A stretch of DNA of 64,000 nt from Bolinopsis microptera (lineage: Eukaryota > Ctenophora > Tentaculata > Lobata > Bolinopsidae): the NCBI RefSeq assembly GCF_026151205.1, contig NC_087079.1:1-64000 (forward strand), written 5' to 3'. A program made the translations under genes and the position numbers. Below the pieces are notes generated by a model that saw nothing but the letters and a program-made list of their open reading frames with translations, was not told where the DNA came from and did not search any database. Every line of letters starts with the position of its first letter. Positions within the stretch are counted from its first letter, which is position 1. Positions 165 through 13,126 of this stretch are shown here, piece after piece.

Positions 165-3100
165 TCAGTTCTCATCGTTTTGGCTCTTATCCTTGTGTTT
201 ATTCCTCTTACTTTCCTTGCCTGACTTACTTCTCACCTTATCTTTCTTCTTTTTAACGACTTCTTCCTCGTCTTCTGACCGTTTCCTCTTATCCTGCTGT
301 CAAATACCTTGATTAAGTTTTCTCTCATATAATGCCAAATTTCCTAATCGGGTCCAACTAGGAAGGGGCATTTGCCAAGGAAGTTAGTCTACCCATTTTA
401 AACTATTAGTATCATTACTAATAGTTAGAAACGCAGGGGCAATGTTAAAGCACTATTGTGATTGCAATATGTGTGATGAAAATAATTACGTTAAGTTCTG
501 ATTATATTGGATACTAGAACTGAAATATATCTTGATGTTCAGTTCAACAAGACGTTCAGGACATTTTGATATTTCATTCGAGAATAACCTGCCCTTTTCT
601 AGAGACTTATAAGTTTGGTTACATATCATAACCATGCTACATGTACCTATTACATGTACCCATTACACGACTGAGGTCTTATCTAGTCCCTGCTGAACCC
701 GAATCAAAAGTTTAATATCACTTCTTTGAATTTTTCAAATCTGATGATATATATTATGGTTTAGATCAGTAATTCAACAGTCGAGGACAAACGTAAAACA
801 GTTTGAAAGAGCAATCAATGGTTCTTGTTTCAGTGATTAAAGCAAATATTGAAAAAGAAAGGGCGCAGTAATAAAAAGGAATTTAAACAAACGATACTAA
901 GCTGAAATCATGAAGTTATTTTTAAAATAGCGAGTAATGATAATTCTTAATGGATTTTTAAGCTCCTGAGCAGTCTAGGACTAGATCCTGAAGGTTTTAT
1001 GATTAAGCAATATATGCGTCTCTATCAGCAGCAAATTTAGAGTATTCTATGCTTTACTGATAGTGCACTTCAATGTCTGCAGTATGACCTCTTCATTTTG
1101 CATTTAAAAATAATAACTTCATTAACGTTATTCAGTAATCAGTTAATATGCCAAGTGCCATTTACACCATTAAGATTATGTCATGGTTAAAACTAGTGTG
1201 AAGCAAATGTTAGACATTATGGCAAACATAAATTCTACTAAATCATCAATTGCTGCAAGAAATGGGTTCAGGCAAGGTTTTGAAACAGCAAGCTTCAACT
1301 TACTTAACTAAAATTTTAGTGATCGTGGGTACTTTTTAACCTGAGTTTAAACAAATTACAAATTACAGTAAGACGTTTTGCAGTTATAATAAAAGTTGGG
1401 CATCGATAAAATATGTAAGTAATAAGTAGGCTAAAATGAAAGGACCAGGTTACAGAACTAATATAAAAACAAAACTGGACTTTTAACGTTTTATCTAATC
1501 CTTACCTTCTCATCATCGTCGTACTTTTCTGATTTTATTTTAGATGACGATTCTGCTTCATCCCTTCTTTTATCCTAAAACAAGCTAGTTATTTTCAACA
1601 ATTAAAATGACGAGAGGTAAAAGAAGGAGAGCGGTTTTTTGAGGCCGAAATTTATGCAACATAGATCATTTGAAAACTTCAGCCAGCCACTATCAATTGC
1701 AATAAACTGTTTCACGTAAATATACTTTTTTTTATTAAATACTTTTCAAATTTTACTGATTACAGAAATGGAGAAATTAAATTAAATAATACGAACTGAT
1801 GATACACCATCTGTAAAATTTGATGGGCAACCAAACACGGAAGCTCATCGCAAGCGATGACCGCAATTACATGGACCCATAAATGGAAAAGCCTAAAACA
1901 AAAATAATTAAAAGTAAATTTGAAAATTCACCTCATAATTTTTTTCTAGCTTTTCATTTGCTGTCTTCAACTTGTCTTGTGTGTATTTAAGTTGCTGTTG
2001 TAGATGCAATATAGTTGCCTGCATGCCTTCGACCTGTGAAAATGTAACATTAAAATGTATAATGCAAATTGTAGTGTAAAAATTCAATAAGAGCACAAAA
2101 CTATGAAATGGTACAAATCTTGAAATAAAAACACTTTTTCTGTGAGTTAACTAAAATATCCACATATTAAGACTCACTTCCTCATCTAGCTGAAGAACAA
2201 ATCCAGTCATTTCATCCAAATTCTTCTGCATTTCTTCATTTGCACTCTTTTGCAGAGACAGTTCAGCTTGAAGCTGAGCTACACGACCCTGTGATAACTG
2301 ACGTCCCAACTCTTCGTTCTCGTCAATCAACATTCTGCATTTCCCCATCAGTTTCTGAAATAAAAAACTAGTTAGGAAAAACTTTAGATTCAATGAGAGA
2401 CTTACCATTTACCAAGAATGATACTATAAACATCTGGCTTTGGTTGCCAAATCAGAACATACATAAGAATAATATGAGTAGGATGATATTTTGTTTCTCT
2501 ATTTTCATGATGACCATAGTCGAAAAATAGTATGAATAAATAGATAAGAACTAACCTTTCCTGTCACACTGTCAGCAGTAAAAGACCAGGCATTGAGTTC
2601 TTCTTCTGCTTTTGCTAGCTTACCCTGGAGTTCCTTTATTTGAGATTGCATCTTCTGGAAAAGCAAATTTACACAAGGATCCAATAGGGTTGTCCGCAAG
2701 TTACTTGTTGAAGGAGCCAGAGAACATTTCAGTTCCTGAAATTTGCATTTGATTAAAAATTGTAGATTGAGTAGATAAGTTTTGTTATTAAATGTTTCAA
2801 AAATTGCAACCAAATGCAGATGAAATCTAAAGAAATATATAAGAACATACATGACATCTTGTAATTATTTCATGAACTTTGAAGACTTCTTTTATAATAT
2901 AGATACATTTTGAGACTATAGAGCATTACCTGAATTTGGTTTATCATATCTTGGGCCTCCTGTTCTTTGCTTGCAAGTCTCATAATCAAAATATTTTCTC
3001 TTCTGGTTGAATCTTGATTCTGCGAATCTAACTTTGATTTAGATTGGTCCTTCAGTTGATCTAACTTATCCTCTAAGAAATCGATATATTTGTCCTGTTG

Positions 3101-3214
3101 ACGCCACTTTTCAGCTATCTTCTCTGCTTTAAATTTTTGCAGATGCCTCTCTTCCAACCTAATCCTCTGCAAATCTGTATCTAATGAACTAGTTTCATTA
3201 GTAGCTGATGCCAT
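165..3214 (-). CDS. WTAP: WTAP-like regulatory subunit of the m6A mRNA methyltransferase complex
   Basis: Six exons on the minus strand join in phase: 3214-2930, 2735-2556, 2354-2178, 2033-1932, 1574-1506 and 296-165. They give about 314 residues starting MASATNETSS and ending at a TGA. Every intron is GT-AG. The protein is almost entirely coiled coil (about residues 20-245). It carries WTAP/Fl(2)d signatures: RRENILIMRLASKEQEAQ in exon 1, LLDPCVNLLFQKM and ELNAWSFTADSVTGK in exon 2, and KCRMLIDENEELGRQLSQGR in exon 3. A short Lys/Glu-rich tail follows. In the family, WTAP holds METTL3-METTL14 in nuclear speckles and links them to VIRMA and other factors acting in m6A deposition and splicing; that role is inferred here from homology. 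It is shorter than human WTAP (396 aa) because the C-terminal tail is reduced. The start ATG at 3214 begins the only open exon with the conserved N-terminus. Confidence 0.93.
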
Positions 3215-4787: not shown

Positions 4788-6107
4788 ATGTATCTGCTTA
4801 GCTGTTTTAAAAACAGTAGGTCATCAAATGTTTCCACCCCTGATCTGCCCATGCCTCCTTTTAATATAGGGTCACCCGCACCATGTGAAATGGACCAAGA
4901 ACAGCTTCTCCTAGATGCACAGAAGCATGCAAGTGTAGACGACCCTAAGTCCAAGCACATTCTGTCGTATGTCCCAGAATTTGTAGATGAAAAATTGAAC
5001 TCTGAGCTTTCAGTTTTCTTAGACCAACAGAAGGAAGCCTTTGATAGTAACTCCGAAAATGGACATGGGGTTGTGAGCTTTGGCGAACCTTATCAGTACC
5101 CGGGGGCTAAAGCTGAAAAACCGACATCAACAGAATTTCCTGAGGTTCTTAATAAGCTTGTCTCCAAGATAAAGGAAGGATGTCCTAGTTCAGCAATCAA
5201 TCAGTGCTTGATAAATCGGTACACTGATGGGAACAGCTTTCTTCCTAAGCACTCTGATAACGAGCAATCACTGGTCCATGATAGTTCCATATTTACAGTA
5301 TCCTTAGGTGGTGATTGCTCTGTAAAATTCACAAAAAAGGATCAGCTTGAAGGAGAGGTCGTAGAGACAATAGAGGGACGTAGTCTCTATGTCATGAGCA
5401 AACAGTCCCAGTTTCTTTGGGACCACCGAATTGATAAAAGCACAGAAAAGAGGGACTTAAGATACAGTATTACCTTCCGCTACGTAAGCAGGAGCATCAA
5501 TGCGACCTTGATTGTCGGTGATTCAAACACCCGGTTCCTCAAATTTGGGGCTGGAAAAGGAACATTTGGACACAAGCTGCCTGGGAAAAGAATCGAATGT
5601 TTCACAATAGATCAGTTAGACCCTGTTCTTTGTGTTGGATACAAGAACGTTGTAGTACACTGTGGTATAAATAATATCAAGAGGGGAGGGGGTGATGTTA
5701 AACATTGGGCTAATGAGCTGATGAAGAAGCTCAAGAATATTTGTGATATGTGTCCATATTCTAAAGTTATTGTCTCACCCATCCTTCCAACTAGGTCCTC
5801 CTGGCTGAATGACAGAGCCATGGAGTTTAATAGTTTATTATTTGGGTACTGTAATACTAATACTAGAATAGGCACTTTAGATTTTGATAGTTTTGTTGAT
5901 GAGGAGGGTCTACTGGACAAGCAGTTTTGTAGATACAAGAAGCCGGATGACCCAATCCACCTGGGGTCAAGCGGTATCTTTAAACTCTCCCGGGCAATTG
6001 CACATAAGATCCTAGGTAGCCCCGTTGATGGGAGGTTGTTCAGTGATGTTACCAAGGCCCAAAAAAGATTTTCCCCACGTTCTCGTAGATCCGTAGTTAT
6101 GTCATGA
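4788..6107 (+). CDS. LINE ORF1: AlkB-like dioxygenase fused to SGNH esterase
   Basis: This 439-residue protein has two catalytic-looking domains. Residues about 55-233 form an AlkB-type 2OG-Fe(II) dioxygenase. The NRYTDGNS segment (143-150) leads into HSD (H155, D157), the distal iron ligand is H213 in WDHRI, and R225 and R231 supply the R-x5-R that binds 2-oxoglutarate and orients substrate. Residues about 238-412 form an SGNH hydrolase: GDSN with nucleophile S246, GINN (G293, N295) for the oxyanion hole, and D388-x-x-H391. Esterase domains are known in CR1 ORF1 proteins; AlkB domains repair alkylated nucleic acid or demethylate RNA. Their combination suggests the element protects or edits its own RNA, which is inference. 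The first in-frame ATG after an upstream stop is 4788. The ORF ends inside the start codon of ORF2. No RNA-binding zinc knuckle is apparent. Confidence 0.9.
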   Translation: MYLLSCFKNSRSSNVSTPDLPMPPFNIGSPAPCEMDQEQLLLDAQKHASVDDPKSKHILSYVPEFVDEKLNSELSVFLDQQKEAFDSNSENGHGVVSFGEPYQYPGAKAEKPTSTEFPEVLNKLVSKIKEGCPSSAINQCLINRYTDGNSFLPKHSDNEQSLVHDSSIFTVSLGGDCSVKFTKKDQLEGEVVETIEGRSLYVMSKQSQFLWDHRIDKSTEKRDLRYSITFRYVSRSINATLIVGDSNTRFLKFGAGKGTFGHKLPGKRIECFTIDQLDPVLCVGYKNVVVHCGINNIKRGGGDVKHWANELMKKLKNICDMCPYSKVIVSPILPTRSSWLNDRAMEFNSLLFGYCNTNTRIGTLDFDSFVDEEGLLDKQFCRYKKPDDPIHLGSSGIFKLSRAIAHKILGSPVDGRLFSDVTKAQKRFSPRSRRSVVMS

Positions 6108-9100
6108 TAGCCAAACTAATATGCGAAATTTGCTGCTGCTGCAATAGACCTGTGCGTGCTGGACATCCATTCATAACTTGTCAGATGTGTGACAAAATAA
6201 TGCACAAAAAATGCAAAACTGATGATAACATAGTCAAATTTCGAGATGCAACATACTGCAAAATATGCACTGATGCCAATGATATCGTTCGGTATAACCC
6301 TTTCTACCAAGCTCCCCACTTTGCAAACAATGGCCTCATTGATGATGAGCCAGTTAATTATATTGAATCTATCTACAATAGCTCAAAGATTCTTGAAAAT
6401 TGCAAAACATTCTCAATAACAGAGTTGAATGCCACCATCCTACCTAAAAATTCAGCTAAATATTTGTCCAAATTATTTCTAAATATTGATGGAAATGCAT
6501 CAAACTTCGACAACTTTGCAGTTGAATTGTCTTGTATCGACCACAAATTCTCTGTTATCGGCCTTGCAGAAACAAACACTAATCCCGAAAATGGAACTCT
6601 GTATCAGCTTAACGGATACTCCTCCTGTTACCAATCACGCTACTTTTGCCAAGAGAAAAACCAGTTCAAGGGTAAAGGGTCAGGAGTGTGTCTTTACCTA
6701 CACGATTCCCTTAACTTTAACAAAATCACTGACTTATCTCTCTGTAATGAACACATAGAATCACTGTTTGTATCTATCACTAGCTTGCAAGATCCAACTG
6801 TCGTAGGGGTTATATACCGTCCCCCAAACGCATCACTTGAGATGTTCAACAAAGCGTATGAATGTATTCTCTCAAAACTGAATGGCAAAAAAGTATATAT
6901 TCTTGGTGATTTCAATGTTAACATTTTGAACGACCCATCTCCATCAGAGGACAAATTCCAAGAAATAATATTCAACAACGGCTTCATACCAACCATATCA
7001 GTACCAACTCACCAAATGCCTGGCTGTTCCAGGACCTGTATTGACAATATCCATACCAATGTCGTAGATCAATCCCTTATTTCTGGTGTGATATCTGACA
7101 AGATCTCCCACCATCACCCTATATTCACTCTTATTGAACTTTCCCCTGACTCTGTGCCAACACCTGATTCATCAGACAAAATTACTATACACTACGACTA
7201 TAGTAATGCTAACTTAGAGAAGCTCTGTCTTGAAATAGAAAACGATATAGATAGGTTCCACCACAGCTGTAACACATTTGACTCTTTCGTGCAGTTATTT
7301 CAAGAAAAGATAGATTTGTCTTGCAAACTTCTAACTCCTAGAACCACTAAACGTAACAGCATAACCAACCCTTGGATCACCCAGGGCCTCATTAACTCCA
7401 TCGACAAGAAAGCTAGGTTGTATTTCGAATGGAAGAAGACTTGTACATTAAAACTACCTGATGGGGATCCAAACAAGCACATCTACTACAAGGAATTCGA
7501 CAAGTTTCTCAAGAGCTCAATAAAGATGGCAAAGGCCATGTGCTATACTCAAAAATTCGAGAAGTACAGCATGAACTCAAAAAAGACTTGGGAAATTATA
7601 AATGAACTCCGTGGCAAAAATTTGTCTAGATGTAAGGACGATTTTGTCATAGATGGCCAGAGAGTTACTTGCAGACGAATAATTGCTAACAAATTCTGTG
7701 AATATTTTACATCTCTTGCAAGTAATCTCAATAAAAATGTACTGTCAAACAATAGTATTTCTCTGGAACCAGTAGAATCATTTGCTCAGTTTATGTCTAA
7801 TTCGGTATCTGACTCCATATACCTGGAAGAAACTAATGAAGAAGAAATTATAGAGGTGATCCGAGACTTTCAAAATGGTAAGGCAAGTGACATACCTATA
7901 GTTGTTGTAAAAAAACCGGCCAAGCTCATTGCTGGTACCTTGGCTAGGCTTTACAACACATGTATACAAAGTGGTACATTCCCAAGTATTTTTAAAACTG
8001 GTAAAGTTATTCCTATTTACAAGAAAGACAATAAAGAATGCATTGAAAATTATCGGCCTGTATCAATATTACCTTTATTTGGAAAGATCTTCGAGAAGGT
8101 CATTTATAAACGCCTCTATAATTTCTTCACATCTAAAGGTGTACTAACAGACTCACAGTTTGGATTTAGAAAAGGCCATTCTACCACCCATGCTCTACAC
8201 AAATCTATAGACTCCGTTACTAAGTCTCTGGCAAGCAATAAACATGTCCTAGGGATATTCATTGACTTGAGCAAAGCCTTCGACACCCTTGATCACGATA
8301 TTCTTTTATGCAAATTAAATTCCTACGGTATTAGGGGCACAGCACTTACCTTACTAAAAAGCTATTTGACTAACAGAAAGCAGTATGTTATGTATAACGA
8401 TGTACCATCAGAAACAATGGACGTGAAATTTGGAGTACCGCAAGGGTCAATTCTAGGGCCGTTACTCTTCCTATTGTATATGAACGATATAGTAAACTGC
8501 TTTTCAGACAGTGAGGTGAAATTTGTACTTTATGCTGATGACACTAATATCTTCATATCAGGACCATCTAGAGAAGCAACATACAAAAAAGCCAACTTAG
8601 TACTTAAACATGTCTCGATTTACATGAAATGTAATCTACTTCATATCAACATGTCCAAATGCTGCTACATACATTTTAAACCTGCCTCTGAATATGATGA
8701 CACCTGTGCACGGACCAGACCATTTGCTATCCTGCTAGATGAATCTAGATCAATATTCATCAATGGTAAGGTTATTACTAAAGTCAAGGATACCAAATTC
8801 TTAGGTGTTGTTATAGATAGTAAGCTAAACTGGATTGCCCACATGCACTACATCCGTAAAAAACTGAGATCTATGACTGGTGCAATCTGCAGAATTCGGC
8901 ACTCGATACCTTCTGAACTATATTTGAAAATATATAATGCTCTTTTTGAATCACATCTCAGTTATGGTATAAGTGTTTGGGGTGTTGTCCTCAAAGAACG
9001 GTCCAATGATAGTCTTTTCATCACACAGAAGCACTGTATAAGGATCCTTTTTGGCGACCTTGACTCATATTTAGATAAACAATCAACATGTGCACGTACT

Positions 9101-9508
9101 AGACCATACGGTATGCAAAAACTAGACCATAAACACTTTGAAAAGGAGCATACAAAACCCATTTTTAATAGATTAAAAATTCTTACGACTCAAAACTTGT
9201 ACAAATATCACTGTATTTTAGAATTCTCTAAGATTATCAAGTACCACTGCCCATACTCCCTTTATGAGGCTATCAACATTTCAAACCGTGCAACGAGTCT
9301 AATGGTTATTCTCCTAAATAAATCAAACACCTTTTTGTTTAATGCAGCCAAGCTTTGGAACACTGTTCATAGAAAAATTTTAACTTCAAGCAATTGCTTA
9401 GAAACGTCCATTAGCTTGATAAAACTGAGAACCAAAGCACTATTAATACAAGCACAGGCAGCTGACTTAAAAGATACTTGGACTCCAAACAATTTCAAAT
9501 TGCAGTAA
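6104..9508 (+). CDS. LINE ORF2: PHD finger, endonuclease, reverse transcriptase
   Basis: This is a 1134-residue polyprotein. Residues 7-55 are a Cys/His-rich PHD-type zinc finger (CEIC, CNRP, CQMCDK, HKKC, CKIC). Residues about 120-345 are an APE-like endonuclease with NIDG, LAETN, YRPP and LGDFN. Its usual SDH near the end reads SHHHPIF, so the catalytic Asp is replaced by His. Residues about 630-870 are the RT: NYRPVSILP, motif A FIDLSKAFDTLDH, motif B GVPQGSILGPLLF and motif C YADD at about 809. A thumb and connection region ends in a typical CR1-like tail. The protein would nick target DNA and copy the element RNA by target-primed reverse transcription. Translation probably depends on ORF1 termination, because the ATG overlaps the ORF1 stop (ATGA). 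Two copies of the heptapeptide TCARTRP occur about 125 residues apart (about residues 867 and 995), which is odd. Confidence 0.93.
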   Translation: MIAKLICEICCCCNRPVRAGHPFITCQMCDKIMHKKCKTDDNIVKFRDATYCKICTDANDIVRYNPFYQAPHFANNGLIDDEPVNYIESIYNSSKILENCKTFSITELNATILPKNSAKYLSKLFLNIDGNASNFDNFAVELSCIDHKFSVIGLAETNTNPENGTLYQLNGYSSCYQSRYFCQEKNQFKGKGSGVCLYLHDSLNFNKITDLSLCNEHIESLFVSITSLQDPTVVGVIYRPPNASLEMFNKAYECILSKLNGKKVYILGDFNVNILNDPSPSEDKFQEIIFNNGFIPTISVPTHQMPGCSRTCIDNIHTNVVDQSLISGVISDKISHHHPIFTLIELSPDSVPTPDSSDKITIHYDYSNANLEKLCLEIENDIDRFHHSCNTFDSFVQLFQEKIDLSCKLLTPRTTKRNSITNPWITQGLINSIDKKARLYFEWKKTCTLKLPDGDPNKHIYYKEFDKFLKSSIKMAKAMCYTQKFEKYSMNSKKTWEIINELRGKNLSRCKDDFVIDGQRVTCRRIIANKFCEYFTSLASNLNKNVLSNNSISLEPVESFAQFMSNSVSDSIYLEETNEEEIIEVIRDFQNGKASDIPIVVVKKPAKLIAGTLARLYNTCIQSGTFPSIFKTGKVIPIYKKDNKECIENYRPVSILPLFGKIFEKVIYKRLYNFFTSKGVLTDSQFGFRKGHSTTHALHKSIDSVTKSLASNKHVLGIFIDLSKAFDTLDHDILLCKLNSYGIRGTALTLLKSYLTNRKQYVMYNDVPSETMDVKFGVPQGSILGPLLFLLYMNDIVNCFSDSEVKFVLYADDTNIFISGPSREATYKKANLVLKHVSIYMKCNLLHINMSKCCYIHFKPASEYDDTCARTRPFAILLDESRSIFINGKVITKVKDTKFLGVVIDSKLNWIAHMHYIRKKLRSMTGAICRIRHSIPSELYLKIYNALFESHLSYGISVWGVVLKERSNDSLFITQKHCIRILFGDLDSYLDKQSTCARTRPYGMQKLDHKHFEKEHTKPIFNRLKILTTQNLYKYHCILEFSKIIKYHCPYSLYEAINISNRATSLMVILLNKSNTFLFNAAKLWNTVHRKILTSSNCLETSISLIKLRTKALLIQAQAADLKDTWTPNNFKLQ

Positions 9509-9961
9509 TCAAATCTAATTGCAGCGGCACACACTTACTATTACTATCATGATTGTACTATAGACAGAAAATCTTTCAAATCGATTTTGGGCGCTTTTTA
9601 ACCATTTGTTGTAATGTTTTTAGATAAGTTAAACATCTAAATTTATAAAAATTTTTATCGGAATGAATTAATTGATATTTAATAATTTATTCGGTAGGTT
9701 TATCTGATATTGATATTGATTATATTGATATTGTTATTCACAAGAGTATTATACCCAACAATGACCGGCGAACTGATAGCTACTTCAGAAGCAATGAAAC
9801 TACGATCTTCTAAATAAAATGAGTCATAGTACTTTCAGCCGGAGCCATCATAAGTGACATAAATCTAAAAGATAGTATGGTTAGTTTCTAAATATAAACT
9901 CAAACTCTGAAAAGGAAACTGCTGTGATAAATGAAACATCAATAAATGGACCAAGTATATT

Positions 9962-11516
9962 TTAAAATAATTTATGGAGAGCCCCTCGGACAAAATAAAA
10001 ATTAATTATGCAGTAAAGGAATGTACTATTCATTCCTGAGGGGCGAAGGGACTTTAAGGCATGTATATATCGGTGCTCCTTTACATCTAAACTACTAGGA
10101 CTTGAATTTTCTAGAATACACACTGAAACACTATTGTTAAAATTTTCCTTCTGAGACAATCCATGCTCTATATGGAGGTGGAGTCCTACACAGTTTGAGT
10201 CATCATCCGTGTCAACCTTTTGCCCACTGATGATCTTGTAGAATGCTCTTCTGTGTTCGCCAAACCTTACCCGTAGCATTCTGGTGGATTTGCCCACGTA
10301 TGGTTTCTCACACAGTTTACATCTGATCAAATATATGATGTTGTAAGTGATGCATGTACCTGGTGCTGGTTTTACCCGTTTCCCATTGATGCTGATTTGT
10401 GTAGCACTATCAATAGACTCACACGTTGCGCAGTTCTTCTTTCTACACGGTTTTGTTTGACCGTGCTTATTCCCCAGAGCTATGTCTTTCACCTTAACCA
10501 ACCGGCTTTTGAGGTTGCTTCCTGTTTTCTTGACAAACTGGAAGAACTTTTTGCCATTCTTCTTTTCTTCAAGGGTGTTACTCTGTTGTTTTGAGTCACT
10601 CAGGTTACAAAAACTTCTGGTCTTCTTTAAGTTCTCCTCATACTTAATCACTGTGGTGACGATATCAGAGTCACTTCCGTAGGTTGAGACAACCCTTATT
10701 GGCAGGATCTCTGGCTTCAGTGTGTTGTCCTTGGGAGGTCTTCGTTCAAGGTTTCTTTCTGAGTTGAGAACTTTTTTGCTGATGTTGTTCACCATTTTTG
10801 AGGGATATGCAGCTGCCTTGAATGCTTGGCTTAATTCACTCAATCTGGTTTCCAGTCGTTCTTGCGAGTTGATTATTCTTCTGAGCCTGATGCACTGGCT
10901 GTAAACTATTCCACTATAAATGTGGTTTGGATGTGCACTGCTAAAGTGTAGATAGCTTCTTGAATCTGTTTCCTTGACATGAAGGTCAGTTTGTAAGTTT
11001 CCCTCAGGGTCGAAACAAAACTCGATATCAAGAAAAGCCACAGGTGTGCCAACTTCCTTCCATTGGGATTCATCAATGAGTAGCCCATATTCTTTCAAGG
11101 ATTTGTTTACATCGGAAATCCATTGGTCAAATTTCCTTTCAGTGCTGTAGAAGAAACCTGCACCATCGTCAATGTAACGTCTTACAGTCCTAACTCTCTT
11201 CATCATGTCAGTGTTACTGTAAACGCATTTGTTCATTACATAAAATACAGTTATGTTGGCCAACTGCACACACAGACTTCCACCTGTAGGCACTCCGTTC
11301 TTTTGGACGTACCACTTGTCTTCAAAGCATCCAATAGAGGATCTTAGGCTGATATCAACGAGGTCGACCAGCCAATCACAGAGTGCTGGTGTCCAGTCTG
11401 GTCTGGTGGTATTCATTGCGTGATGAACGGCTTCCTTGACAAGTTCAGGGTTTAATGAATCGTAGAGACCTTTGAAGGTGTTATTATTGAACGAAGCTAA
11501 CTCTAGACATAGTTAA
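9962..11516 (-). pseudogene. Penelope-like element, 5'-truncated (RT + GIY-YIG endonuclease)
   Basis: The frame is open for about 515 codons on the minus strand. It begins without a start codon near 11516 (first internal ATG 11416) and ends at 9962. The N-terminal part is the C-terminal half of an RT: GVPTGGSLCVQLANI corresponds to motif B, and RRYIDDGAGFF carries the catalytic YIDD. A Cys-rich linker (CRKKNCATC) precedes a GIY-YIG nuclease: YNIIYLIRC, then KPYVGKSTRMLRVRFGEHR, and a later H-x-H stretch. This RT plus GIY-YIG order defines Penelope-like elements. The fingers half of the RT is missing, so the copy is truncated and presumably dead, although the remaining frame has no stop. It lies 3' to 3' with the preceding LINE. 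Confidence 0.9.
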
Positions 11517-11907: not shown

Positions 11908-13126
11908 TCACTCAGTTGATGGTAGAACAGTGGGTCTTTGTGCGATGTTGTAGCAGGGACTCCACTTCTTGTTTTCTCTTGCTAACCAGATTGCATAGGA
12001 ACATCTGAGAGCAACCAAAGCCGCCTCTTGGAACACTGCTTTCTTTACTCTCTTTGTAACACCAAAGTAGTTTAGTAGGGCTGGTAAGGTATGATGCCAG
12101 AAGCCTCTACACCCAACCTCTACCGTAAAAAGCTGAGCTTTCCACCCACTGCCATGCAGCCCAGGAATAAGCTCTCTGTTGTAACGTGCTTGTTTACGTT
12201 CTACTTGGTCACTAAAGTTACTCTCGTCACCAACTGTCAACTCTACTAATATGACCACCTTTCCTTTATCAGACCAGACTACAATATCGGGACGTTCTGC
12301 AGTTCCGTAGATGTGCTGGGGGAACTGTGCTGGGAGGTCATCTTCGTCCCAGATAATCTGCCAATCTTGGTCTTTCTCAAAAGGGCTCTCTCTTTTCATC
12401 TTCGTCTTCGGTTTTTGGTAACAGCTGCTAGATGACTTGAAGCCTGTCCAGTCCTGAACTTCAAGTTTAAAATCTTTGTTGTTGAACTTCTCGATTTGAT
12501 CCAGTAGGGATTTCGCAATGACCCGCAGCACGTTGTCATGCCTCCAATTGTATCGTTTGTTGTTCAGCGAGAAGTTGCAAGCTACCAAAATGTGCTTAAT
12601 GTTGCAGTGTCTCCATCCGCAAAGTGGACAGTGTCCTGTGTCAGCATAGTTCCACAGGCTCATGTTTGCTGGAGTATTTGCAACGTCATGGGTTGCATTG
12701 AGGTGGAACTTAAGAAGAGCAGGGCTCATCTTGTAGTTGTAAATAAGGTTGTTCCAACCTAGGTCTAGCTGCATGGTGTTTTCCCATGTTAAGAATTGTC
12801 CTTGAACTCCCTTGTCTACCAGTGTCAACAGGATATCCTGCTCTGAGATGTGGGATAACAGTTCTTTCAGTTTTTCCTTTTCACTGGCTACACTCCTCTT
12901 GGATCCCAAGCCCATCCTGCCTTGCACTGTTACCCCTACTAACTCTCTGAAGTAGAGATCTCTTTCTCTAGCACTCAGCTCATTAGTGTAACCCCACCGA
13001 CTGCTCCCTTCTTGTTTCTTGGCCCTGTGCTCGTAGACCTCCTTAACTTTAGGATCCTTGCTACAATTATCAGCAGAGCACCTTAGTAATACACTATCAG
13101 ATAAATTATACTGTTCGGACTTCAGC
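11908..13126 (-). pseudogene. C-terminal part of an R2/NeSL-type retroelement (zinc knuckle + PD-(D/E)xK nuclease)
   Basis: The frame is open from about 13126, just after a TAG, to a stop at 11908: roughly 405 codons with no obvious ATG start. The middle holds a CCHC-type zinc finger, CPLC then H-x4-C in KHILVAC. This is followed by a restriction-like endonuclease core: RPDIVVW, then VILVELTV, then basic ERKQARYNREL. This arrangement is the C-terminus of early-branching, often site-specific non-LTR elements (R2, NeSL, CRE and related groups), where the nuclease cuts the target. No RT motif remains upstream, so this is a 5'-truncated copy. A stand-alone domesticated nuclease cannot be excluded because the frame has no internal stop, but the lack of a start argues against it. 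Confidence 0.72.

Follow-up and report, generated by a model that had tools for sequence, protein, structure and literature searches.

An AlkB-type dioxygenase domain joined to an SGNH esterase domain in ORF1 of LINEs from the ctenophore Bolinopsis microptera

The stretch of DNA analysed in this work (hereafter the window, i.e., the 64,000 nucleotides of C8:1-64000 in the 264.65 Mb genome of Bolinopsis microptera) carries what is almost certainly a truncated copy of a non-LTR retrotransposon (LINE), whose ORF1 protein consists of an N-terminal region followed by an AlkB-type dioxygenase domain and an SGNH hydrolase domain. This fusion, which a first-pass annotation had described from the one copy, goes well beyond it, being present in several LINE families with very different ORF2s as well as in a predicted Helitron. 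The explanation that seems best to us overall, and to which we give an even chance, is that of a LINE with an AlkB-SGNH ORF1 protein, where the AlkB would remove methyl lesions from the template.

The window copy and its two ORF1 domains

The element is recognisable as a LINE by the reverse transcriptase and AP-type endonuclease of its ORF2, its multiple copies and the 5′-truncation of copies (Table 1), and by its layout it may belong to the CR1/L2 group. Two relatives (L009 and L010) are 99.7% identical to it over positions 4802-9738 (blastn), and longer copies of families A (the window's own) and B extend past both of its ends, with homology to the window stopping at about 9738 (blastn). Since homology to these longer copies starts only at 4798-4802, the ATG at 4788 is flanking DNA. 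The ORF1 frame of L009 has 710 codons with its first Met at codon 51 (i.e., a protein of 660 aa), and the window ORF1 retains the last 436 residues, about 224 N-terminal residues of this approximately 660-aa protein being absent. The first-pass annotation, which had read a LINE ORF1 at 4788-6107, was right about the open reading frame and its position, but this frame is a 5′-truncated remnant of ORF1, opened by a flanking ATG. As to ORF2, that of a relative (L038) has a PHD match in Pfam (E 1.1e-4, slightly under the cut-off), and matches to the AP-type endonuclease reach E 2.4e-15 in the ORF2s of relatives.

Table 1. Features of the LINE copy and its surroundings in the window (positions are those of the window)
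Feature	Position	Strand	Basis or detail
WTAP exons	2505-3214	-	PF17098 E 1.9e-17, and 7.5e-5 below cut-off
Flanking host DNA supplying the ATG of the window ORF, outside the element	4788..4801	+	homology begins at 4798 or 4802
ORF1 remnant with AlkB and SGNH domains	4788..6107	+	439 aa
LINE copy, 5′-truncated; 3′-truncated compared with A- and B-family relatives	4802..9738	+	blastn
AlkB-type 2OG-Fe(II) dioxygenase domain	5025..5489	+	PF13532; N143, Y145, H155, D157, H213, R225, R231
SGNH hydrolase (esterase-type) domain	5493..6032	+	S246, G293-x-N295, D388, H391
ORF2	6104..9508	+	1134 aa; 4-base overlap of its start with the ORF1 stop
Cys/His-rich zinc-finger-like N-terminus of ORF2	6122..6268	+	by sequence; no Pfam match in the window copy
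AP-type endonuclease domain, weak here	6545..6937	+	PF03372 E 0.011
Reverse transcriptase domain	8021..8815	+	PF00078 E 1.3e-36
GATATT-like short repeats, 3′ end of the copy	9700..9738	+	sequence and comparison with other copies

Residues 96-231 of the window ORF1 match PF13532 (2OG-FeII_Oxy_2) at E 9.3e-18 (65.6 bits, cut-off 31.2), and the AlkB motifs are N143-x-Y145-x-x-G148, H155-x-D157, H213 and R225/R231; those of the SGNH domain are G244-D-S-N, G293-I-N-N and D388-P-I-H391. The first-pass annotation had claimed full sets of both motifs in one ORF, and all of them lie where it placed them. The HMM search that it had proposed as a check is clear for AlkB, whilst for SGNH the window copy alone remains below the Pfam cut-off (PF13472, E 0.0037) and it is the family profile that is significant: built from ten family SGNH domains, it finds solved SGNH hydrolases, such as 2hsj (a putative platelet activating factor, 4.9e-10) and 4c1b (a chain named ORF1-encoded protein, 2.7e-7), the latter of which we infer to be the zebrafish ZfL2-1 esterase. 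A single-sequence structure prediction of the window ORF1 protein gave no usable model (pLDDT 35). The PADLOC model CARF_2OG, whose name indicates a defence protein with a dioxygenase of this kind, matches the AlkB domain at 5088-5486 of the window (forward strand; residues 101-233 of the ORF1 protein) with E 1.9e-7.

With its two ORFs, its AP-type endonuclease and reverse transcriptase, and the C-terminal SGNH domain of its ORF1, the element resembles the CR1/L2-type LINEs with an esterase ORF1 (type IV, e.g., ZfL2-1), from which the window family differs in having an AlkB ahead of the esterase, AlkB being outside the published type. In the accessible part of their survey of 448 elements, Metcalfe and Casane (2014) tabulate PHD, RRM, CCHC, Tnp22, esterase and leucine-zipper/zinc-finger parts and no AlkB, and confine esterase ORF1s to vertebrate groups. 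Schneider et al. (2013; PMC3905857), as far as the accessible text goes, report esterase-bearing CR1, RTE, RTEX and Penelope elements from many phyla, hydrolysis and phospholipid binding by the esterase of zebrafish ZfL2-1, and no esterase ORF1 protein in RepBase with a structural RNA-binding domain. The first-pass annotation did not know the fusion as a described LINE architecture, and our full-text literature searches, whose hits were judged mostly by title or the opening of the abstract, likewise listed no AlkB-esterase LINE and no AlkB Helitron; nor was a TE-borne AlkB found in the accessible parts of PMC8141815 or PMC11294593.

Families, a Helitron and purifying selection

Searching the genome with the window ORF1 gave at least 96 related stretches (942 candidates, 96 scored), which fall into identity groups of about 96-100%, 81-84%, 79%, 53% and 41%, with some partial matches between them, and every one of C1-C13, as well as four small contigs, has listed matches. 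The Pfam AlkB model gave at least 151 matches (587 candidates, 150 scored), and short-pattern searches of viral-contig and genome-contig collections gave no relatives outside this genome. Two glutamate-receptor fragments encoded in the genome have the iGluR ML032222a, a protein of Mnemiopsis, as their best match in the PDB (4.8e-46 and 1.9e-91), in keeping with a ctenophore. The stretches read were 20 from the window-ORF1 search (including the start of the window itself), 12 from the AlkB search and six short ones; 16 TE proteins in 12 labelled types were scanned, 12 source loci having been chosen for AlkB. PF13532 is over its cut-off in all 16 proteins, as is to be expected, since they were chosen either for their AlkB or for their resemblance to the window.

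Families A-D have the layout of the window copy. A PHD-like finger precedes AlkB and SGNH in E, G and H (PHD-type Pfam matches of E 0.00095 to 0.0067, all below the cut-off), F has AlkB and SGNH with no PHD match, I, J and K have AlkB-SGNH upstream of quite different endonucleases, and M has AlkB, a coiled-coil-like stretch and SGNH. In the endonuclease tree A-H form one group, and I, J+K and M are separate; the same groups appear in the AlkB tree, where the rows of the Helitron and of L046 are weakly nested in A-H; some branches are long and some support is weak.

The SGNH domain is harder to see by Pfam, with a match (PF13472 or PF00657, E ≤0.1) in 13 of the 16 scanned TE proteins, mostly sub-threshold and over the cut-off only in L029 (the Helitron described below). 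Pfam finds no SGNH in the other three (L026, L034 and L035), yet all three can be aligned at their SGNH motifs. Within family M, L031 matches PF13472 at 0.0079, L032 matches PF00657 at 0.057 and L034 neither, and a profile of two M rows found no PDB chain at E 1. In the 17 SGNH rows, which were cut out by the Ser motif, Asn and His are present throughout, as is the Ser of the cutting motif itself, and Asp is present in 15, being missing in family I; J and K have SSS in place of GDS. Of the two features of a type IV ORF1, an SGNH esterase and a coiled coil ahead of it, the esterase is present, and for the coiled coil there are weak Pfam matches, among the proteins scanned, in family M.

The pair is also found in L029 (C3:14437500-14446000), where a single frame of 2039 codons within the fetched stretch carries SGNH (E 3.2e-8), AlkB (4.6e-21) and Helitron_like_N (2.9e-22), i.e., SGNH and AlkB in the reverse of the LINE order. 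The last of these domains identifies L029, at the level of sequence, as a Helitron. The frame has long runs of short peptide repeats, with SGNH and AlkB at its start. Six of the listed AlkB matches (150 scored) are in frames of more than 2000 codons, L029 being the one that was read, and the AlkB of L033 is similar to it by eye, in a shorter frame. The placement of the Helitron in the AlkB tree is unreliable, due to its long branch, and a LINE-only clade has a p-AU of 0.067. L029 is reminiscent of Texim of fish Helitrons, a Helitron-associated SGNH hydrolase related to CR1-encoded esterases; AlkB is not mentioned in the accessible part of that report (PMC4021074), whereas L029 has SGNH, AlkB and the Helitron N-terminal domain in one frame.

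The AlkB domain is under purifying selection. Its dN/dS, which the first-pass annotation had proposed to measure on copies, lies between 0.06 and 0.19 in six pairs (A-B13, A-B23, A-C, B13-C, B13-B23 and E20-E21) with dS of 0.34-2.5, and in the same pairs dN/dS is 0.15-0.21 for the N-terminal part, 0.08-0.12 for SGNH and 0.09-0.11 for ORF2; a value of 0.09 for A-D comes with a dS of 4.7, too high to trust, and C-D and E20-F gave no measurable value. The weak SGNH score of the window copy, if taken alone, would suit a chance capture of a host gene in one copy, or a misassembly. Such an origin is extremely improbable, and we regard it as ruled out by the number and spread of the related stretches, by their belonging to several families and by the selection just described, to which the agreement in groups between the AlkB and endonuclease trees can be added.

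Passage of ORF1 between elements

The sequences argue that ORF1 passes between LINE elements, because silent sites are heterogeneous along these elements and because ORF1s and ORF2s of different families are found together. ORF2 starts were counted among 150 listed ORF2 matches, as those of at least 56% identity with a match from query residue 10 or earlier. An ORF1 match lies directly upstream of 56 of the 70 starts so counted, or of 57 of 72 if two further qualifying rows are included (the ORF1 match is 26 bases away in one of these and absent in the other), and some of the abutting ORF1 matches span the SGNH part only. At five of the counted loci a window-type ORF1 (96-97%) stands with an ORF2 of 57-62% identity, the ORF1 match spanning residues 4-439 in three of them and the SGNH part only in two.

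One of the three with a long ORF1 match, L050 (C9:10642600-10644700), provides the one junction that was read. In the last 600 bases of its ORF1 it is 93-100% identical to the window, and beyond them 52-76%, whilst with family D (L016) it shares 54-69% identity before the junction and 96-100% after it, the bin of the junction itself being intermediate (82% to the window, 79% to L016). Since identity switches at the ORF1/ORF2 boundary, L050 is a chimera of two families, with a window-type ORF1 and a family-D ORF2. The other four mismatched loci likely share this junction, and hence the chimera has likely multiplied.

Divergence in patches is also seen along whole elements. In the pair E20 and E21, AlkB and most of SGNH lie in a stretch of about 1.2 kb with 71-82% identity, against 98-99% ahead of it and 92-98% over the next 1.9 kb or so; identity then falls again to 82-95% in the reverse transcriptase part, so that AlkB is not the sole diverged stretch of this pair. 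A and B13 begin with 360 bases of 94-97% identity; their N-terminal part and AlkB drop to 69-85%, and from SGNH onwards, almost as far as the 3′ end, identity is 90-98%. A and C differ along the entire ORF1. At fourfold sites, differences are in excess in AlkB over ORF2 for A-B13 (34/52 vs 68/384, p 4e-12), B13-C (34/53 vs 101/381, p 1e-7), E20-E21 (25/57 vs 78/369, p 4e-4) and A-C (21/54 vs 90/376, p 0.03). Topology tests of exchange among A, B and C rejected a grouping in one case out of six (A+C in the endonuclease, p-AU 0.006); the other five gave no rejection (p 0.14-0.42) and do not identify the donors, and three A/B/C groupings needed no topology test.

Some copies are young. Among 40 listed matches of the window-type AlkB block, 17 (the window included) are full-length at 93-100%, and among 41 of the type found in E21 (L021), 13 are full-length at 97-100% and 17 near-full-length at 77-78%. 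L020 and L021, the two copies compared along their length, represent two discrete types of AlkB block within one LINE family.

What the AlkB domain may do

The 18 TE rows of the AlkB alignment (22 cut-out rows minus five near-identical ones, plus L046) are 26-43% identical to the window domain. The HxD motif was used to cut them out, and H213, R225, S227, T229 and R231 were not. H155, D157, H213, R225, S227, T229 and R231 are invariant in all 18, whereas N143 is kept in 14 (family G has S, and I and K have T), Y145 in 16 (family E has F) and G148 in nine. N-x-Y is part of the 2OG site of AlkB; since N143 and Y145 vary among the TE rows, this 2OG-binding pair is not strictly kept. Decay of the catalytic residues, which the first-pass annotation had named as grounds against its reading, is thus not seen in the iron ligands and the two arginines, but N143, Y145 and G148 do vary. 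The domain is probably catalytically active.

The variation of N143 and Y145 would also suit an AlkB fold kept mainly as a nucleic-acid-binding module for an esterase-type ORF1 protein, with its catalysis incidental; AlkB could take the place of the RNA-binding domain that, as far as the accessible text of Schneider et al. goes (PMC3905857), no esterase ORF1 protein in RepBase has in structural form. A pure binder, however, would be expected to lose some of the iron ligands and arginines, which are invariant in spite of the low identity between the domains, and we consider this reading quite unlikely.

The closest relatives of the domain are better seen from the family than from the single copy. 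A profile of 14 TE AlkB domains has ALKBH3 (3.3e-23) and ALKBH2 (1.1e-21) as its top matches in the PDB, and lower in the same ranking ALKBH8 (7.9e-13) and the AlkB of bacteria (about 4e-9), with ALKBH5 (5.5e-4) still below some chains that bear the name DNA N6-methyl adenine demethylase (2.5e-5), and FTO absent among the 44 PDB matches listed at E 0.01; the window AlkB alone finds ALKBH8 first (1.3e-7). The likeness to the dealkylases ALKBH2 and ALKBH3 lies in these best profile matches, and in iron ligands and both arginines common to the TE rows and to three host-type copies, the difference being that the AlkB of the TEs is fused to SGNH.

The host-type copies (L041, L042 and L043) are three AlkB genes, taken here as putative host genes. 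They have R-x-N-x-T-x-R where the TE rows have R-x-S-x-T-x-R, and S227 and T170 separate the two sets, although S227 is no TE-only mark, since S is also found in human ALKBH8. In the AlkB tree L041-L043 are outside the TE rows with weak support (76/67). A recent capture from a host ALKBH gene was considered and set aside, this weakly supported placement outside the TE rows being what bears on it.

ALKBH2, ALKBH3 and AlkB clear single-stranded nucleic acid of 1-methyladenine and 3-methylcytosine. Lesions of this type block reverse transcriptases, and AlkB is used against them in tRNA sequencing. The ORF1 protein coats LINE RNA, so that an AlkB fused to it would sit on the template. In the scheme that we propose, the ORF1 protein would bind the RNA of its element, the AlkB domain, with Fe(II) and 2-oxoglutarate, would strip methyl groups of the Watson-Crick face (m1A and m3C type) off the single-stranded nucleic acid, and the reverse transcriptase, no longer stopped by the lesion, would make a longer cDNA; the SGNH domain may act on a lipid or acetyl ester, or bind membrane, as proposed for other transposon esterases. 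That the AlkB cleans the element's own template in this way is something to which we would give slightly less than an even chance. It is favoured over m6A erasure, RNA binding and action in trans, due to the likeness to ALKBH3 and ALKBH2 and to the position of the ORF1 protein on the template. On the other hand, similarity to ALKBH2/3 leaves the substrate unfixed, and ALKBH8 comes first in the single-copy search. Any such cleaning would also be incomplete, since the window copy is 5′-truncated and other listed matches are partial.

ALKBH8 is a tRNA-modifying relative of AlkB, and its place as the best single-sequence match in the PDB would suit an AlkB working in trans, with RNA, tRNA or DNA of the host as its target, e.g., to alter translation or host defence. 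Action on cellular RNA has also been raised for an AlkB borne by a Ty3/Gypsy element of orchids, according to the accessible part of that report (PMC9289625). The fusion into the ORF1 protein, which normally coats the RNP of the element that encodes it, would nevertheless point to action in cis, which makes the trans reading very unlikely in our opinion.

The orchid element (Phalaenopsis) is a close known case of a retrotransposon with its own AlkB, and its cofactor residues are conserved, but it is an LTR element with a separate AlkB ORF, ALKBH5-like by name, and no esterase is mentioned in what is accessible of the source (PMC9289625). The m6A demethylase activity reported there in vitro, and the weak matches of the TE profile to ALKBH5 and to the chains named DNA N6-methyl adenine demethylase, would speak for an eraser of m6A in RNA or 6mA in DNA, allowing escape from epitranscriptomic or epigenetic silencing as proposed for the orchid Gypsy. 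Evasion of m6A-based control was also one of the roles that the first-pass annotation suggested; we do not favour it, and think it unlikely, since ALKBH3 and ALKBH2 are far ahead of ALKBH5 (by about 19 orders of magnitude in E-value for ALKBH3). In addition, METTL3 facilitates and ALKBH5 suppresses L1, as far as the accessible part of PMC7873242 goes, so that erasing m6A would be of no obvious benefit. The m6A-writer gene WTAP, to whose proximity the same annotation had drawn attention, is a real neighbour, with exons 1.6 kb from the LINE copy; an m6A link of the element through WTAP was rejected, as listed matches of the window ORF1 occur on all of C1-C13 and on four small contigs, and the neighbourhood is best read as coincidence.

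Removal of methyl lesions from the template might not be confined to LINEs. Helitrons have a single-stranded DNA intermediate, which would require the same cleaning. Plant RNA viruses with an AlkB (Alpha- and Betaflexiviridae, Closteroviridae) are similar in being mobile RNA with its own AlkB, and different in not being LINEs; we know of no SGNH domain in them. Their AlkB has been postulated to keep the RNA intact, according to the accessible part of PMC9289625. The presence of the same pair in a Helitron, in reversed order, hints at a need common to elements with single-stranded intermediates, and the passing of ORF1 between families is what one would expect if this protein conferred an advantage. 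A wider reading, which we put forward tentatively as possible rather than probable, is that AlkB-SGNH is a module of selfish elements found in unrelated transposon classes, exchanged between LINE families, and cleaning methyl lesions that block reverse transcription or replication off RNA (in LINEs) or single-stranded DNA (in Helitrons). On this wider reading AlkB-SGNH would be a new type of ORF1 and, to our knowledge, would include the first template-repair enzyme fused to a LINE coat protein. The occurrence of the pair in several kinds of element, and its exchange among relatives, suggest that mobile DNA may come equipped against chemical damage on its single-stranded copies. What the ORF1 protein does is a long-standing question of LINE biology, above all for the esterase type with no known RNA-binding domain (as described in the accessible part of PMC3905857), and an enzyme of known chemistry inside this protein makes its role testable.

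Two other open reading frames follow the LINE copy in the window. The one at 9962-11416 (reverse strand), which adjoins the 3′ break of the LINE, has weak matches to reverse transcriptase and GIY-YIG (PF00078 1.6e-4 and PF01541 0.0024, both below the cut-off) and looks like a Penelope-like element, and that at 11908-12927 (reverse strand), with a weak zf-RVT match (8.7e-5), is perhaps the remnant of another retroelement.
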